From Leucobacter sp. Psy1 (GTDB taxonomy: Bacteria; Actinomycetota; Actinomycetes; Actinomycetales; Microbacteriaceae), in NCBI RefSeq assembly GCF_020096995.1, contig NZ_CP083692.1, positions 2,046,001-2,110,000 on the forward strand: a stretch of DNA of 64,000 nt, read 5' to 3'. The notes below the pieces were generated by a model, which saw nothing but the letters and a program-made list of their open reading frames with translations, was not told the origin of the DNA and made no database searches. This document shows, piece after piece, positions 3,784 through 64,000 of the stretch (positions are counted from its first letter, which is position 1; each line of letters starts with the position of its first letter). The position numbers and the translations under genes were made by a program.

Positions 3784-4895
3784 CGTGCGGGGCTCCCCTC
3801 GAGTGCTGGAACGATCTCGGTCAACCAGCCGAAGCGATCGGGCCGGGTGCCGAACTGGATGCCGGTGAGCTCCTCGCGCAGCGACATGGTGAGCGAACCG
3901 GGTGCGTGGTCACCGAAGTCGATGTCCCTGCCGTCGGCGGTGCGGAGCTGCCCGATCGGTGTGATGACCGCGGCGGTACCGCACGCGAACGCCTCGGTGA
4001 TGGTGCCCTGGGCCACGCCCTCGCGCCACTCGGACACGGTGAGGGGGCGCTCTTCGATCGCGTGGCCGCGATCCTGAGCGAGCTCGATCAGGCTCTTGCG
4101 GGTGATGCCGGCGAGGATGTTCCCGTTCAGCTCCGGGGTCACGAGCGTCCCGTCGGAGCGCACCAGGAAGAGGTTCATGCCCCCCAGCTCGTCGATCGTG
4201 TCATCGGTCTCCGAGTCGGTGAAGAGCACCTGGGCGCAGCCGTGCTCTGCGGCCTCGTTCTGCGGCAGCAGCGAAGCGGCGTAGTTGCCACCGCACTTGG
4301 CGGCACCGGTGCCGCCGTGTCCGGCGCGCGCCCAGTGCTCGGACAGCCAGATCGACACGGGCTTGACCCCACCGGTGAAGTACGGTCCTGCCGGGCTCGC
4401 GATCACGAGGAACCGGGCCCGCCGTGCCGAGCGCACCCCGAGGAACACCTCGTCAGCGATCATGAATGGACGCAGGTAGAGGCTCTGGTCGGCTGCCGTC
4501 GGCACCCAGTCTGCGTCGATCGCGACGAGCTCCTGGACGGAGCGCACGAACAGCTCCTGCGGCAGCTCGGGCAGCGCGAGCCGCCTCGCCGAGTCGTTGA
4601 GGCGCTGGGCATTCGCCTCCGGCCGGAAGGTCACGATCGAGCCGTCAGGGCGTCGGTACGCCTTCAGCCCCTCGAAGATCTCCTGCCCGTAGTGCAGCAC
4701 GGACGAGGCGGGGTCGATCTGCAGCGGCCCGTATGGCAGGACCTGCGCATCGTGCCAGCCGTCCTCCTCGGTCCAGGTGATCGAGACCATGTGATCGGTG
4801 AAGTGGGTGCCGAAGCCGGGGTCGGCGAGGATGCGCTGCCGATCCTCGGCCGGCAGGCGCGAGGCTTCGGTGCGGGTGAATGCGAGGTCGGTCAT
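3780..4895 (-). CDS. ilvE: Branched-chain amino acid aminotransferase
   Basis: This 371-residue fold-type IV PLP transaminase catalyses the last step of leucine, isoleucine and valine synthesis (2-oxoacid + glutamate). The segment GGTGAAKCGGNYAAS holds the PLP lysine (Lys200). The N-terminal LADPGFGTHFTDHM and C-terminal EAFACGTAAVITPIG are characteristic of the actinobacterial/eukaryotic-type BCAT. It lies 12 bp downstream of leuB and overlaps the next gene by four bases. The cluster therefore pairs the third leucine-specific step with the terminal transamination. Confidence 0.95.
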   Translation of the reverse strand: MTDLAFTRTEASRLPAEDRQRILADPGFGTHFTDHMVSITWTEEDGWHDAQVLPYGPLQIDPASSVLHYGQEIFEGLKAYRRPDGSIVTFRPEANAQRLNDSARRLALPELPQELFVRSVQELVAIDADWVPTAADQSLYLRPFMIADEVFLGVRSARRARFLVIASPAGPYFTGGVKPVSIWLSEHWARAGHGGTGAAKCGGNYAASLLPQNEAAEHGCAQVLFTDSETDDTIDELGGMNLFLVRSDGTLVTPELNGNILAGITRKSLIELAQDRGHAIEERPLTVSEWREGVAQGTITEAFACGTAAVITPIGQLRTADGRDIDFGDHAPGSLTMSLREELTGIQFGTRPDRFGWLTEIVPALEGSPAR

Positions 4896-6367: not shown

Positions 6368-6669
6368 ATGGACGATTCAATCACCTCCGCGATCAGGCGA
6401 CTCGCTGAGAAAGAGGTCGCCCGCTCACGCGCGCGCTGCCCCGAGCCTCCGAAAACGCCTCGCGTACTCGTAGTGTCGACCGAGGTTCTCCCGGGGGCAG
6501 GCTGCTTCCGATTACCGAAATCGTCCGCCTGCTGGGTAGGTCCAGGGACTGGGTCTACGACCGGATCACGACAGGTGAGCTCGCGACAGTGAATCTCGGA
6601 TCCGCGAAAGCGAAGCGACGAATTGAGGCCGCCGAGCTTGCTCGCTCTGTGAGGGCCATCGCCGATTAG
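6368..6669 (+). pseudogene. Excisionase-like HTH protein, frameshifted
   Basis: The ATG at 6368 opens a frame starting MDDSITSAIRRLAEKEVAR. A second frame, shifted by one base, then reads RLLPITEIVRLLGRSRDWVY and runs to a TAG at 6667. Together they look like one approximately 100-residue protein with an HTH_17/excisionase-type DNA-binding domain, the kind found in actinobacterial integrative elements. The shift must lie between about 6440 and 6510. Neither half alone makes a complete domain, so it is probably inactive. It ends in a 4-bp tail-to-tail overlap with the dehydrogenase gene. Confidence 0.65.
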
Positions 6670-47823: not shown

Positions 47824-47869
47824 GCCTCCGTAGCTCAGTGGATAGAGCATCGGCCTTCTAATCCGTTGG
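47824..47869 (+). other. tRNA-Arg(UCU) 5' half; candidate prophage attL
   Basis: GCCTCCG TA GCTC AGTGGATA GAGC (47824-47848) is a complete acceptor 5' strand and D-arm. It continues through the anticodon stem and loop CTTCTAA (anticodon TCT). After about 47862 the expected anticodon-stem partner, T-arm and acceptor 3' strand are absent; the sequence enters the phage repressor gene. It is therefore a truncated tRNA at a prophage junction. The stop codon of the repressor lies in this loop (CTA on this strand). Confidence 0.82.
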
Positions 47870-48154
47870 GCGCAAATCCGGCGCTGCAGGGTTCGGGTCA
47901 TCGACGACGAGGAACCAGTCCGCGGGGATCCCCGTGAGGAGTTGCAGTCGCTTAGCGAGCCCCGGGGCATCTTTGAATCGTGGCGTAGAGCGCCCGGTCT
48001 CATATGCCGCGAGTGTGCTGGCCGTCAGTCCGACCTGCTCGGCGAACTCACGCTGGCCGAAACCAGCGATGTCGCGCGCTTTGCGGATCTTGTCACTGAA
48101 CTCCCACACGGGAATCATGCCCGGCTTCGGTGCGTGGTTTGCTTGTGCTCTCAT
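47858..48154 (-). CDS. Prophage XRE-family repressor, C-terminus at the att site
   Basis: This 98-residue protein has a clear XRE/Cro-like HTH (KIRKARDIAGFGQREFAEQV then LTASTLAAYETGRSTPRFKD). The tail ends PAAPDLRPTD. The TAG stop (47858-47860) lies inside the tRNA anticodon loop at the prophage boundary. The gene may therefore have lost its phage C-terminus on integration, as in mycobacteriophages BPs, Brujita and Charlie. The ATG at 48154 starts 7 bases after a well-placed -10, suggesting a leaderless message. An in-frame ATG at 48190 is upstream of that promoter. Confidence 0.88.
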   Translation of the reverse strand: MRAQANHAPKPGMIPVWEFSDKIRKARDIAGFGQREFAEQVGLTASTLAAYETGRSTPRFKDAPGLAKRLQLLTGIPADWFLVVDDPNPAAPDLRPTD

Positions 48155-48161
48155 GGTCTTT

Positions 48162-48190
48162 ATTATGCAGAGTTGGGCAAAGGTGCGCAA
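48162..48190 (-). promoter_or_regulatory. Repressor promoter (leaderless)
   Basis: On the reverse strand TTGCGC (48190-48185) is separated by 17 bases from CATAAT (48167-48162), which lies 7 bases before the ATG at 48154. This spacing would start transcription at or next to the start codon. Confidence 0.65.
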
Positions 48191-48255
48191 GTGTCGAAAA
48201 TAAAGACATTATGACTCAAAGTTGAGCTTGCGTAACTTTAACGATGTATGCATAC
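48186..48255. promoter_or_regulatory. Candidate operator array between divergent phage genes
   Basis: CGCAAG (48186-48191) and CTTGCG (48227-48232) are inverted copies overlapping the two -35 boxes. AAAGTT/AACTTT (48218-48239) is another inverted repeat, and GTATGCATAC (48246-48255) is a perfect palindrome over the rightward -10. These are likely binding sites for the repressor and its divergent partner. Confidence 0.55.
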
Positions 48256-48256
48256 T
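48228..48256 (+). promoter_or_regulatory. Rightward early promoter (leaderless)
   Basis: TTGCGT (48228-48233), 17-base spacer, CATACT (48251-48256), then 7 bases to the ATG at 48264. It mirrors the repressor promoter exactly in spacing and -10 distance to ATG. Confidence 0.65.
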
Positions 48257-48263
48257 TGACCGC

Positions 48264-48506
48264 ATGGAACTTACGCATTCTCAAGATGGTGACGAACTTC
48301 TCACCGTTGCGGAGGCCGCGAAGCTGCTCGGAGTCTCAGTAGACACCATACGTCGGTACTCGAGAGCGGGCACACTGGCCACCCGTCGAACCCCAACGAA
48401 TCATCGCCGCTTCAACCGCGGCGATGTCATCGCGCTGCTCCGCAAGGAAGTCTGTGGCGAGGTTGGTCCCCAGGAACTCCCGCGCCCCGGTGGGGGTGAA
48501 TCATGA
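48264..48506 (+). CDS. Excisionase/Cro-like HTH protein
   Basis: This 80-residue protein has a MerR/HTH_17-type domain (ELLTVAEAAKLLGVSVDTIR then RYSRAGTLATRRTPTNHRRF), as in excisionases. It is divergent from the repressor and is the first rightward gene, a position used by cro or xis in actinophages. The ATG is probably leaderless. Its end overlaps the convergent membrane-protein gene by 6 bp. Confidence 0.82.
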   Translation: MELTHSQDGDELLTVAEAAKLLGVSVDTIRRYSRAGTLATRRTPTNHRRFNRGDVIALLRKEVCGEVGPQELPRPGGGES

Positions 48507-49106
48507 CGCAGCCGTTATCCCGCGATCTCGGATCATCTTCTCGATCGCTCTCACTGGCGCATCGGTCTGACCAGTTGCGCGCACGAGAGAGGGATGAGTT
48601 TTCAGCTTCCGCGGCCTCCACACCCTCCAGAGGCCGAAGAATCGAGAGCGCCTCAGATCGAACACTTCAAAATTCGCTGTCTTGGGATCGAGAGCGAGAA
48701 GAAGCGCGAGTGGTCGAGGCTTCGCACCGATATGCGCTACCCAATAGCAAATCACCCTCGCGTAGCCCTTGTAAGGCTCAGGGAGCTCCTCTGGAAAGAG
48801 GATGAAACGCACTACCGGTTCCGAATTCGCGTCGAGATGCGCCTCCGGCGCGGTGCTGTCCATGTCGATATACGGGTTGGCCACGAAGTTCACATCACTG
48901 AGGACCGCATTGCCCATTGGCCGAACAACGAACATGAAGCTTACCGCGCCTTCTGGTAGCTCTCCCGCGTTCTCATCGGGGACTCGGCTGACCGACACCC
49001 CCACTTGACCGTGCTTCCTCGTGAAGGCAGCCACAGTTAGCTGGATGGTCACGCCGACGGCAGCAACTACCGAGGCTGCTGCACCCAAGATTGTCCAAAA
49101 ATCCAC
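48501..49106 (-). CDS. Single-pass membrane protein, lysogeny-strand gene
   Basis: This 201-residue protein has one N-terminal hydrophobic helix (ILGAAASVVAAVGVTIQLTV) followed by a mostly soluble, proline-rich domain (FPEELPEPYKGYARVICYWV). The family is not recognised. GGAGCG precedes the ATG. It is the only early-region gene on the repressor strand, the usual place for lysogenically expressed superinfection-exclusion or defence genes. GC content appears lower than in the neighbouring genes. Confidence 0.7.
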   Translation of the reverse strand: MDFWTILGAAASVVAAVGVTIQLTVAAFTRKHGQVGVSVSRVPDENAGELPEGAVSFMFVVRPMGNAVLSDVNFVANPYIDMDSTAPEAHLDANSEPVVRFILFPEELPEPYKGYARVICYWVAHIGAKPRPLALLLALDPKTANFEVFDLRRSRFFGLWRVWRPRKLKTHPSLVRATGQTDAPVRAIEKMIRDRGITAAS

Positions 49107-60191: not shown

Positions 60192-60692
60192 GTGCCGATC
60201 TCGGACGAGGAACGACGCCGGCGCGACCGCGAGCGAAAGCGGCAGAAGCGCGCGGGAGAACATGGCACGGAGACCGGCGACAAGATCCCCCGGATCGGTC
60301 TCGGGGCCGCGGACACTCCGCGGACAAACGAGGCGCCCGAAGACGCGCCAGAGACGCCGGACGAGTCCACCTCGAATGCCGCGGCCGCTCGCGCACTCAT
60401 CGCGGATCTCGAGGTGCCCGCGCGAGTGAAACCGCTCGTGCCGGTGCTCTACAGACTCGCGACGGATCTCGACGGCATGTTCAACGTCCCGCAGCGGGCG
60501 TCGATCACGACCAAGTACCTCGAGGTGCTCGATCGCATCCTCGAGGCAGCGAGGCCAGTGGAACGCGACGAACTCGATGAGATGCGCAAGGCGTTCTATC
60601 TCGGGGAGGTGCCGGGTGGCGAACCCCACGATCCGGAAGGCCCCGCGGAAGACGACAAACCGAAGCGCTCGCGGCAGCGCCGGAAAGCGTAG
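60192..60692 (+). CDS. Phage terminase small subunit
   Basis: This 166-residue protein has a basic N-terminus (SDEERRRRDRERKRQKRAGE), a helical core with RALIADLEVPARVKPLVPVL and KYLEVLDRILEAARP, and an acidic/basic tail. Position (before the large subunit) and composition fit a P27-like small terminase. The end overlaps the large subunit gene by 77 bp. The GTG at 60192 lies in GAGGAGG. Confidence 0.8.
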   Translation: MPISDEERRRRDRERKRQKRAGEHGTETGDKIPRIGLGAADTPRTNEAPEDAPETPDESTSNAAAARALIADLEVPARVKPLVPVLYRLATDLDGMFNVPQRASITTKYLEVLDRILEAARPVERDELDEMRKAFYLGEVPGGEPHDPEGPAEDDKPKRSRQRRKA

Positions 60693-62184
60693 TCGCCCGC
60701 CGGCGAAACGGGTCTACGGTCACGAGTGCCCCCGGGTCTACACCCGGCCAATGCGACCACTCACTCCCAAAACCTCGGCCGGGTTCTCCGCGATCCAGTT
60801 CGCCGAATGGCTGCACTCGCAGCTCAAGGGAACCCAGTTCGAGAAGTACGCGCCCCCGCTGCTCCCGTGGCAGCGGTGGTTCCTGATCCATGCGCTCGAA
60901 CTCATGCCCGACAACAGTTTCCGTTTCACGACGGTCCTGCTGTGGGTCGCTCGGCAGAACGGTAAGACGTTCCTCTCCGCTCTGCTGATCCTCTGGCGCA
61001 TGTACATCGACGCCGACTGCATCGCGATCGGAGTTGCGCAGAAACTCGCGACGGCCAAGAAGCCATACGAGCACGCCATGAAAATCATCTCGGTGATCCC
61101 GCGGCTCAAACAAGAACTTGAGCGCGAGTCACGGGTCGGCGGCGAGCTGTGGTTCGAACTCACCAACGGTCAACGCTACTGGGTGGATTCTGCTGAGAAC
61201 GGCGGCCGCGGCCTGACGTTCGACCTTGTGTTCGTGGACGAGATCCTCAAGCACAAGACATGGGCCGCGTGGTCGGCGCTCTCGAAAACGACGTTGGCGC
61301 GGCCGCGACCGCAGCTCATCGCCGCGTCGAACACGGGCGATGTCACGTCGATCGTGCAGAAGCACCTGCACGACGAAGCCATCAAGCACCTCGCCGATCC
61401 GACTACGCGCGTCGGCCTGTTCTGGTGGTCGCCTCCGGACGGGATGCCGCTCGATACCCCGGAGGCATGGGCCTACTCGAACCCGTCGATGGGCTACCTC
61501 ATCACCGAGGACGCGATCAAGAACGCGTGGTCAACGGACCCGGCGCCGGTCTTCCAATCCGAGGTCGGGAACCTGTTCATCGACGCCGCGTCGATGGGGC
61601 CGTTCCAGCCGGGCAAGTGGCAGGACGGGCTCGACATCCTGTCTCGGCGTGCCGAGGGTGCCGAGGTGTACATCTGCATCGAGGTGTCCCACAACCGGCA
61701 ACTCGCGCACATCGGGTTCGCGGCCTGGCGTGAGGACGGCAACGCCCACGTCGGCATCATGGCGTCGCGCCCCGGCACAGACTGGATCGTTCCGTGGCTC
61801 ACCGCCGACGAAAGAACGTTCACCCCGGCGGGGATCACCTTCCAGACGAAAGGCGCTCCGGTCTCGTCACTGGTCGGCGCATTCGACAAGGCCCGTCTCA
61901 ATGTCACGGAATGGGGCGGCCCGGATCTCGGACGAGCTACCGGTCAACTTCTCGACGGCGTGAACCTGGGGAAGGTCTTCCATCGCGAGCAGCCGCTCCT
62001 CGATGTCGCCGCTGGCAGCGCAGTGACGAAGCAACTCGGGGACGGGCACGTGATCGATCGCAAGAACTCGCCAGGTGACGCGTCTCCGATCTCAGCGGTC
62101 GCGGGCGCGTACTGGTTGCTCAACAACCCGCCGGCCAATTCGGTGCCCCGGGTACGCACACTCAGGAGGAGGTCACGTGGGTAG
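60616..62184 (+). CDS. Phage terminase large subunit
   Basis: This 522-residue protein has the Walker A ARQNGKT (Lys117) in the ATPase domain, Walker B LVFVDE (Asp208, Glu209), and conserved segments of the actinophage TerL C-terminal nuclease (YICIEVSHNRQLAHIGFAAW). The GTG at 60616 follows GGGGAGG and matches related starts (VANPTIRKAPRK). It packages DNA into proheads together with the small subunit. Confidence 0.93.
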   Translation: MANPTIRKAPRKTTNRSARGSAGKRSRPPAKRVYGHECPRVYTRPMRPLTPKTSAGFSAIQFAEWLHSQLKGTQFEKYAPPLLPWQRWFLIHALELMPDNSFRFTTVLLWVARQNGKTFLSALLILWRMYIDADCIAIGVAQKLATAKKPYEHAMKIISVIPRLKQELERESRVGGELWFELTNGQRYWVDSAENGGRGLTFDLVFVDEILKHKTWAAWSALSKTTLARPRPQLIAASNTGDVTSIVQKHLHDEAIKHLADPTTRVGLFWWSPPDGMPLDTPEAWAYSNPSMGYLITEDAIKNAWSTDPAPVFQSEVGNLFIDAASMGPFQPGKWQDGLDILSRRAEGAEVYICIEVSHNRQLAHIGFAAWREDGNAHVGIMASRPGTDWIVPWLTADERTFTPAGITFQTKGAPVSSLVGAFDKARLNVTEWGGPDLGRATGQLLDGVNLGKVFHREQPLLDVAAGSAVTKQLGDGHVIDRKNSPGDASPISAVAGAYWLLNNPPANSVPRVRTLRRRSRG

Positions 62185-64000
62185 GGTCAGCAACGCATTC
62201 CGCGCGCTCGTGACGCCGAGTGAGAAGCGCTCCCGCCGTCGGATGCCGTCTCTCGGCGGATCGCGCACTCTCGCCGGCGTCACGGTCACGCCGGAGCTCG
62301 CGCTGCAGGTGAACGCGGTTTACTCCGCGGTGCGCCTCGTCTCGGAGGCGATCGCCTGTCTCCCGGTCTCGGTCGTGAAGAAACAGGGCCGAAGCCGCCG
62401 AGCACCCTCGGGAGCGCACGCTCGGACAGCTCGACTGATCACTATCGCACCGAACCCCACCATGGACGCCGGGGAGTTCTGGCGACTCCTGACCGCCTGG
62501 ATGCTGCTCCGGGGCAACGCGTACGCGTACGTGCAGCGCGACGGCAACGGGGACGTTCAAGCCCTGTGGCCGATCCCCCCGACGATGGTGAAGGTCCTGC
62601 GCACGCCCACCGGAGTCCTTGCCTACAAGCTCTCGCACGACCAGCGCGACTGCTGGCTCCCCGTCGAACCTGGGTACGTCGCGACGCACCTCGAGGTGCT
62701 GCACTACCGGTGGTTCGGGCTCGGCACTGAGGGTCTCTCCCCCATCGGGGTAGCCCGTCAGACGATCGGGATCTCCCACGCCGCCACCGCGTACGTCGGC
62801 GGGTTCTTTGAGCGCGACGCGACGCCGGAGACAGTCGTCACGACGCAGGGCAACCTCACCGAAGAGCAATACGACCGGCTTCTCGATCAGCTCGAGGACC
62901 GTCACCAGGGGTTCGACAAGTCTCACAACCTCGCAGTGTTCGAGGGGGGCGCGAAGCTCGAGCGAGTCTCGCTCTCCCCCGCTGACGCGGCGTTCCTCGA
63001 CATCTACAAGCTCACCAGATCCGACATCGCATCGATCTATGGAGTTCCGCCGCACAAGATCGGCGACCTCGAGCACGCCACCTTCTCGAACATCGAACAC
63101 CAGTCGATCGAGTTCGTGCAGGACGGTCTCCTCCCGCCGATCCGGCGGCTCGAGCTCGTCACCGCGAGCCTGTTCGCGGACGACGACATGCAGATCAAGT
63201 TCGACACGAAGGGTCGGATGCGGGGCGACACCGCGACACAGGCGCAGTCGTACGCCACCGGGCGACAGTGGGGCTACCTCTCCGCGAACGACATCCGCGC
63301 ACTCGAGGACAAAGACCCGATCGAGGGCGGCGATGTCTACCTCGAGCCGATCAATATGATCCCTGCCGGACAGACCACCGTGCAACGCGCTGGCAATTCC
63401 CCCGCGCAGATCCCCACGCTCGCACCCACCGAATACCGCGCAGCGATCGAACGCCGAGCAGCACCCGCCGAGGAGTCGCCCACGTGGTCCGCCCGGATCA
63501 CGACCGTCCTCGTCGGCTACCTCGACGAGTTCCGGGACGAGGTAGCCGCGGCGCTCGCCGCCGAGCGGAACCTCCGATCCCTGGCGCAGATCGACGGCGA
63601 CGTGTGGGAGGAGCTGCTCGCCGAGCAGTTGCAACCCGTGTTCGCGGGCATCGTCAGCGAGTTCGGAGAGCGCGCGGCGTCGCAGGTAGGCGGCACATTC
63701 GCGAGCGGCAAGACGACCAACTGGGTACTCGCCGCCGCGCGCCGCCAAGCGCATTCCTACAACGTCTCGTTGTTCGAATCGCTCGAGCGGGTGTTGTCCG
63801 ACCTCGGTGAGACCTCCGTGCTCGATGCGCTCCGCACGTTTTTCGAGGGACGCGCCGCCGAGACTGCGCTCGTCGCCGCGACCGTGGTGAATGCCATCGG
63901 CGGATTCGGTCGCCACGAGGGCGCCGCGCAGAACGGCGCTCGCATGAAGACGTGGGTAGTCAATTCCAGTAACCCGAGACCCTCGCACGCCGCCATGGCT
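62177..64000 (+). CDS. Phage portal protein with C-terminal MuF-like domain (runs off window)
   Basis: The GTG at 62177 follows AGGAGG. At least 608 residues continue past the edge. Residues 1-420 are an HK97-type portal (VNAVYSAVRLVSEAIACLPV; PNPTMDAGEFWRLLTAWMLL; RSDIASIYGVPPHKIGD). From about 440 a new helical region leads to KTWVVNSSNPRPSHAAM, the signature of Mu gpF-like (MuF) minor head proteins. The frame is unbroken, so it is a portal-MuF fusion rather than two genes. Confidence 0.88.
   Translation, partial: MGRVSNAFRALVTPSEKRSRRRMPSLGGSRTLAGVTVTPELALQVNAVYSAVRLVSEAIACLPVSVVKKQGRSRRAPSGAHARTARLITIAPNPTMDAGEFWRLLTAWMLLRGNAYAYVQRDGNGDVQALWPIPPTMVKVLRTPTGVLAYKLSHDQRDCWLPVEPGYVATHLEVLHYRWFGLGTEGLSPIGVARQTIGISHAATAYVGGFFERDATPETVVTTQGNLTEEQYDRLLDQLEDRHQGFDKSHNLAVFEGGAKLERVSLSPADAAFLDIYKLTRSDIASIYGVPPHKIGDLEHATFSNIEHQSIEFVQDGLLPPIRRLELVTASLFADDDMQIKFDTKGRMRGDTATQAQSYATGRQWGYLSANDIRALEDKDPIEGGDVYLEPINMIPAGQTTVQRAGNSPAQIPTLAPTEYRAAIERRAAPAEESPTWSARITTVLVGYLDEFRDEVAAALAAERNLRSLAQIDGDVWEELLAEQLQPVFAGIVSEFGERAASQVGGTFASGKTTNWVLAAARRQAHSYNVSLFESLERVLSDLGETSVLDALRTFFEGRAAETALVAATVVNAIGGFGRHEGAAQNGARMKTWVVNSSNPRPSHAAMA

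Follow-up and report, generated by a model that had tools for sequence, protein, structure and literature searches.

Integration-dependent immunity has been reported for the phage BPs (PMC4557955), for Gordonia phages, Obliviate being predicted to work in this way (PMC4929511, with a further source in PMC5559632), for the Bifidobacterium prophages Bb423phi2 and 689b-1 (PMC6109161), and for prophages of M. abscessus (PMC9934374), all of these except PMC4929511 being cited here from the accessible part of the source. In BPs the long form of the repressor is broken down via its tag, where the penultimate Ala matters, the substitution A135E stabilises this long form, and the long and short forms bind DNA alike (PMC4557955). 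tRNA-dependent lysogeny has been described for Fionnbharth (K4), the cluster L phages, Gaia and the Gordonia phage Mollymur in PMC10865867, the accessible part of which treats the two as different systems and has in its Table 2 neither a tRNA-Arg nor a phage of Microbacterium or Leucobacter. In a literature search with most subscription journals outside its coverage, this is the only source, as far as the accessible texts go, that names both systems together; PMC12160441, in its accessible part, cites the paper that founded tRNA-dependent lysogeny for a method only.

The nearest, and partial, precedent for their combination is the M. abscessus prophage prophiT36-2b (MabB), where integration-dependent immunity goes with a tRNA-Thr suggested to compensate for an impaired host tRNA (PMC9934374, accessible part). 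It differs from the locus presented here in three ways: (i) the prophages are in tandem, with similar 40-bp cores; (ii) the tRNA at attL is formed, although mismatched owing to the other prophage; (iii) and finally, some 2 kb separate the phage tRNA from attR, and the other MabB prophages do not have it.

In Leucobacter sp. Psy1, comparison of both joints indicates that a prophage of 35,834 bp splits a host tRNA-Arg(UCU) gene; structural, endolysin, terminase and portal genes are carried by it (PHROG search). Its left joint lies in the window, by which we mean the whole stretch of 64,000 nt that was analysed (2046001-2110000 of a genome of 3.25 Mb in one contig), and its right joint, attR, 19.7 kb beyond the window end, with the 3′ half of the tRNA from G000:C1:2129693 onward. 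The features needed are the following, those marked L005 being given in the coordinates of that stretch:

47824..47865, plus strand: attL, the 5′ part of the host tRNA-Arg(UCU), matching the 5′ part of intact tRNA-Arg(UCU) genes
47859..47865: core TAATCCG, 7 bp, common to attL and attR, tRNA bases 36-42
47858..48154, minus strand: XRE repressor in its prophage form, 98 aa, ATG at 48154 (Pfam HTH_19, 1.2e-10; PHROG 2328 transcriptional repressor, 4.4e-12)
47858..47860, minus strand: stop codon TAG of the prophage repressor, antisense to tRNA C35, U36 and A37
60577..62184, plus strand: terminase large subunit (PHROG 9, 4e-70, 60718-62181 scanned); coordinates of the ORF as listed, whose true start may be further in
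62075..64000, plus strand: portal protein, cut by the window end (PHROG 2662, 9.3e-96, 62132-63998 scanned); coordinates likewise of the ORF as listed, the true start perhaps further in
L005:18411-19361, minus strand: tyrosine integrase, beside attR at the far end of the prophage
L005:18322-18395, minus strand: complete phage tRNA-Arg(tct), 15 bp past the integrase stop

The bases that flank the 7-bp core at attL and attR are unlike on either side, and when the outer flanks are joined in silico ARAGORN calls a tRNA-Arg(tct). The same program called no complete tRNA at attL in the window, and in the attR stretch it called the phage copy only; the host tRNA is not rebuilt there. The empty site can be seen in the syntenic genome G253, where the matches to the left flank (86.8% over 1565 bp) and to the right flank (81.8% over 1504 bp) abut at the core, and an intact tRNA-Arg(UCU) is present in the eight same-genus genomes searched, from which the genome G376 was left out. 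Two side observations belong here: the same-genus genome G208 (L080) has a second complete tRNA-Arg(UCU) besides its intact host-like copy, perhaps carried by another mobile element, and the prophage has, directly before its endolysin-like gene, an ORF of 184 aa (L005:14544-15098, plus strand) that consists mostly of Pro-Glu repeats.

No integrase was found beside the repressor in the window; it lies beyond the repressor end, on the same strand and at the opposite end of the prophage, outside the window. The sequence-only reading had noted the cut in the anticodon arm and the stop in the anticodon loop and had foreseen this placement, and its expectation that attR would hold the integrase, the 3′ half of the tRNA and the remainder of the repressor was borne out in all three respects. 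In this layout, that is, with an attP core in the repressor gene, a shorter repressor in the prophage and int past the end of the repressor gene on that strand, the locus is like BPs, Obliviate, Bb423phi2 and 689b-1. It is unlike them in that its core has 7 bp, the tRNA is not rebuilt and a phage tRNA compensates; Obliviate, UmaThurman and Guacamole are reported to encode no tRNAs (PMC4929511). These last properties, a short core in a host tRNA gene, no rebuilding and a phage tRNA of the same isotype, are those of the Fionnbharth group, which differs in turn because plaques stay turbid and immunity persists there when int is mutated, and for this reason the repressor of that group is independent of integration (PMC10865867, accessible part).

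The stop of the prophage repressor is supplied by the bacterial DNA. The attP codon is TAT and that of attL is TAG, of which T and A come from the core and G from the host, as the complement of the anticodon base C35, so that the repressor is shortened in the prophage. As had been supposed beforehand, the frame continues past the core in the reconstructed attP: the core lies inside it with no stop, the reading across is GAT-TAT, and the remnant at attR, which is in frame and starts with GAT TAT, stays open over 25 residues, until a TGA that shares bases with a possible GTG start of the following gene. The repressor of the free phage would have 123 aa. As it is the host tRNA that supplies the stop, no empty site can be without it, and therefore its presence in an uninfected strain, which had been named beforehand as grounds for dismissal, is no refutation of the switch. 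The same reading had held the repressor to be different from those of the known switches; this must be given up, as it is related in sequence to that of the Gordonia phage Obliviate, already predicted to work so, and on that evidence it is not of a new kind.

We propose, with a probability of roughly three in four and on the strength of these comparisons of sequence, that integration-dependent immunity of the BPs type is here joined to tRNA-dependent lysogeny of the Fionnbharth type. In the free phage the frame would be read through the core as GAT-TAT to give the repressor of 123 aa; the integrase would then recombine the 7-bp core with its counterpart in the host tRNA-Arg(UCU) gene (bases 36-42), where the host base C35 would turn TAT (Tyr) into TAG (stop) and leave a repressor of 98 aa. 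By analogy with BPs, the long form would probably be degraded via its C-terminus and the short form alone would keep immunity, which would thus follow integration. With so short a core, the host tRNA would be destroyed and not rebuilt, and the tRNA-Arg(UCU) beside int would replace the broken gene, with which the lysogen would read AGA codons. The joints, the frames, the identity of the tRNA and the recurrence of the layout are plain in the DNA, and from them we infer that the long form is broken down, that the lysogen depends on the phage tRNA, and in what order the steps take place. Each of the two devices has been described in other phages, and the present locus combines them; a regular pairing of the switch with a rescue tRNA seems to be undescribed as such in the literature searched. 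If the proposal is true, the stop codon of a phage switch depends on an anticodon base of the host, and any change made there by the host would also change the codon that its tRNA reads. On the wider view set out below, immunity and an essential host function would both be in the keeping of the prophage, whose loss would be safe only if excision restored the host gene exactly.

A stop in that phase would be met by chance in about one of three prophages, and as a single case it is weak; the comparison of 20 repressors is what makes the phase more than chance. An integrase match at E <= 1e-40 was found in 13 of 398 genomes of the family, and in five of these (our own, G376, G205, G271 and G370) a tRNA-Arg(UCU) lies at most 20 bp from int; the 14-kb stretches read in the other eight have none. 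All five prophages split the same tRNA loop, attR continuing as GAT TA(T/C) in each and attL ending in GAT TAG in the four where it is readable, that of G370 being at a contig end. The relative of the same genus, G376, has an integrase 70% identical to this one; a scan of the genome collection with the integrase alone gave one relative. In G271 the core is longer (15 bp), yet the tRNA is not rebuilt. Its attR (L058) presents the 3′ half of tRNA-Arg three times in a row, with Tpsi-loop matches at 6605, 6698 and 6765, perhaps the scars of repeated integrations.

Among viral contigs, a first scan gave six loci, five with a tRNA-Arg(UCU) and one cut at int, and a second scan 18, four of them on contigs already known, the other 14 having the tRNA in 11 cases and lacking it in three. 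These counts include viruses seen twice, as judged by the same integrase ends and tRNAs: L107 is that of G205, L108 that of G271, L118 that of G370 and L110 is Min1, while L120 repeats L119. Upstream of the core the frame is open for at least 91 residues in 20 of 20 cases, and all the readable repressors cross the core in the same phase. By E-value these 20 form one group, and regrouped by identity they make five groups at 40% or three at 30%.

It could be argued that attP and the repressor end are merely closely packed, that both forms repress and that the changed stop has no regulatory role. This is not without grounds, as the two forms of the BPs repressor bind DNA equally well (PMC4557955, accessible part), an open frame of 25 codons is not rare in GC-rich DNA, and the extension of our own repressor has no -AA end. 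However, the phase is the same in 20 of 20 repressors from five groups at 40% or three at 30%, and 15 of 18 extensions end in -AA, -TA or -VA, so that we hold such packing to be unlikely, although it is the more serious of the objections.

The ends of these extensions deserve to be considered one by one. Of the 18 read, 11 end in -AA, four in -TA or -VA and three in neither (our own in -ACS, G205 in -SGR and Min1 in -AAG), and further ones are mixed: -AAS in L105, -AHA in L113, -LAQ in L119, and, in the long-core loci, -RVS in L104 and -GIQ in L109. An -AA tag is thus not universal in these sequences. The host tmRNA tag is ANAKRTDFALAA, ending in -ALAA, and the integrase itself ends here in -RRRAA, with -AA also in the four prophage relatives, in Min1 and in the eight Arthrobacter phages of cluster FF discussed below, whereas other ends are seen in L103 and L105 (-VA), L111 (-AG), L112 (-VT) and L119 (-MA). 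The full end of our own extension is -EACS, while in G376, the relative with the closest integrase, it is -AAA, and it might be supposed that the switch is ancestral and has decayed in this prophage, the long repressor being no longer unstable. We consider this improbable: the end of BPs itself reads -DKAS in the primer printed in the accessible part of PMC4557955, where it is the penultimate Ala that matters, and the extension here is open as far as a stop that overlaps the possible start codon of the next gene. The -ACS end is compatible with a tag and is not evidence for one. Of the switch that had been proposed from the window, then, the layout stands, supported by its recurrence, in the same phase, in related prophages and free phages; the long form would be unstable by analogy with BPs, and the end for which a hydrophobic or Ala-rich tag had been expected is here -EACS and not -AA. 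The anatomy of the switch is real and recurrent, and its function is deduced from it.

The rescue tRNA, which the sequence-only reading had left out, is the other half of the system. A similarity search of the whole genome returned the phage tRNA, the two host halves and three tRNA genes with other anticodons, and a pattern search gave the phage tRNA as its sole tRNA-Arg(UCU), which is thus the only intact one found by both searches. The reading of AGA codons requires the UCU anticodon, and therefore the lysogen should be dependent on the phage copy. For the four relatives, ARAGORN called no tRNA-Arg(UCU) in the attL stretches, that of G370 stopping at the joint. A loose tRNA pattern run on the four genomes gave 83 rows, as many as the reversed control, and among its rows only the phage copies fall on a called tRNA-Arg. 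Other uses of phage tRNAs have been proposed, as recorded in the accessible part of PMC10865867, and the gene could serve lytic translation or counter tRNA-cutting defences, its match to the broken gene being incidental. This is the least credible of the explanations weighed here, since the UCU anticodon matches the cut gene in the five prophages read at the cut site, since no other tRNA-Arg(UCU) call was found in those five genomes besides the phage copy, and since the long-core loci L104 and L109 have no tRNA gene in the stretch read.

The phage tRNA contains the same 7 bp as attP and might itself be a target of the integrase. That rescue tRNAs have been altered to escape their own integrase is not claimed, since the tRNA and attP cores are identical in L105, in the IMG1/IMG6 type and in this phage itself. 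In eight of the 11 tRNA types whose attP core is also seen, the 6-bp core of the tRNA is unlike that of attP, and this needs no selection, because a survey of 150 genomes of the family gave mainly TAATCT or TAATCC in the tRNA-Arg(UCU) among the matches listed.

The long-core loci bear on how the two halves came together. The integrases of L104 and L109 are 54% and 53% identical to that of this prophage, and the whole 3′ half of the tRNA lies there within the repressor frame, reading ...SNLRPRD-Y, with no tRNA gene in the stretch read; L106, whose core is outside its contig, has none either, and the three form one group in the integrase tree. The four changes in that tree were not used, as IMG4 had been scored as lacking the tRNA though its contig stops at int. 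In the loci that show both the core and the int flank, a short, non-rebuilding core is accompanied by a phage tRNA and a long core is not, and the phase of the repressor is the same in both kinds. This fits a trade in which the tRNA would let the core shrink, or the reverse order, between which the tree does not decide. Loci of the long-core type, which share this kind of attB and lack a tRNA gene, offer a natural comparison for the origin of tRNA-dependent lysogeny. We are inclined, with some reserve, towards the wider view that an actinobacterial phage lineage set two gates to lysogeny in one recombination event, the anticodon writing the stop of the repressor and the carried tRNA freeing the repressor from encoding the 3′ half of the tRNA.

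The double layout recurs in the four other Microbacteriaceae prophages, in Min1 and in the eight cluster FF phages. Two separately described ties between integration and lysogeny occur together in this phage, and they recur in phages of Microbacteriaceae and of Arthrobacter. Min1, whose host is Microbacterium nematophilum, and the FF phages compared (QuinnAvery, Cole, Ryan, Nandita, Popper, Zaheer, Gusanita and Elesar) are like this prophage in having a tRNA-Arg(TCT) near a related integrase and the core within a gene of repressor type (named c1, immunity repressor, Cro or helix-turn-helix), again in the same phase, in the nine read. The FF phages except Elesar have, unlike this prophage, a second integrase. 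In Popper the core-bearing gene is named Cro and another gene immunity repressor; in Elesar our repressor is matched best by gene 32, and the core lies in another gene. The Min1 tRNA, called by ARAGORN, is missing from the annotation of its record, and a survey table lists the phage with 0 tRNAs (PMC7302621, accessible part); its integrase is in two reading frames in the deposited record (L014, about 3990-4010), either through a sequencing slip or through a real frame change. QuinnAvery is reported to have a tRNA, two integrases and lysogens at about 53% in PMC13097055, the accessible part of which mentions neither an attP in the repressor nor tRNA dependence. For lysogen-forming FF phages (Arthrobacter globiformis B-2979) the prediction is that int, the phage tRNA and the repressor would all be needed. 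Kiko, Obliviate, UmaThurman, Barebow and AGM1, considered for their related repressors, were set aside: they use other sites, with neither a GGATTA core in the stretch searched nor a tRNA at the locus.

On the other side of the repressor lie two further features:

48155..48263, no strand: divergent control region between the repressor and the excisionase-type gene, whose imperfect inverted repeats are candidate operators
48264..48506, plus strand: MerR-like excisionase-type gene, 80 aa (Pfam HTH_17, 6.1e-13; PHROG 66 excisionase and transcriptional regulator, 2.7e-10)

One inverted repeat is of 24 nt with 75% complementarity and the other of 17 nt with 82%, the latter extending to 48284, into the excisionase-type gene, and no promoter of sigma-70 type was found in a scan of 48155..48263. 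A candidate operator-repeat pattern was rejected, having seven matches against 4.5 expected, a number that 16 of 100 shuffles reach. Just beyond the excisionase-type gene, and opposing the early genes, there is an ORF of 201 aa (48501-49106, minus strand) with a hydrophobic start; Pfam and PHROGs searches gave no match for it, and its position would suit a gene expressed from the prophage.
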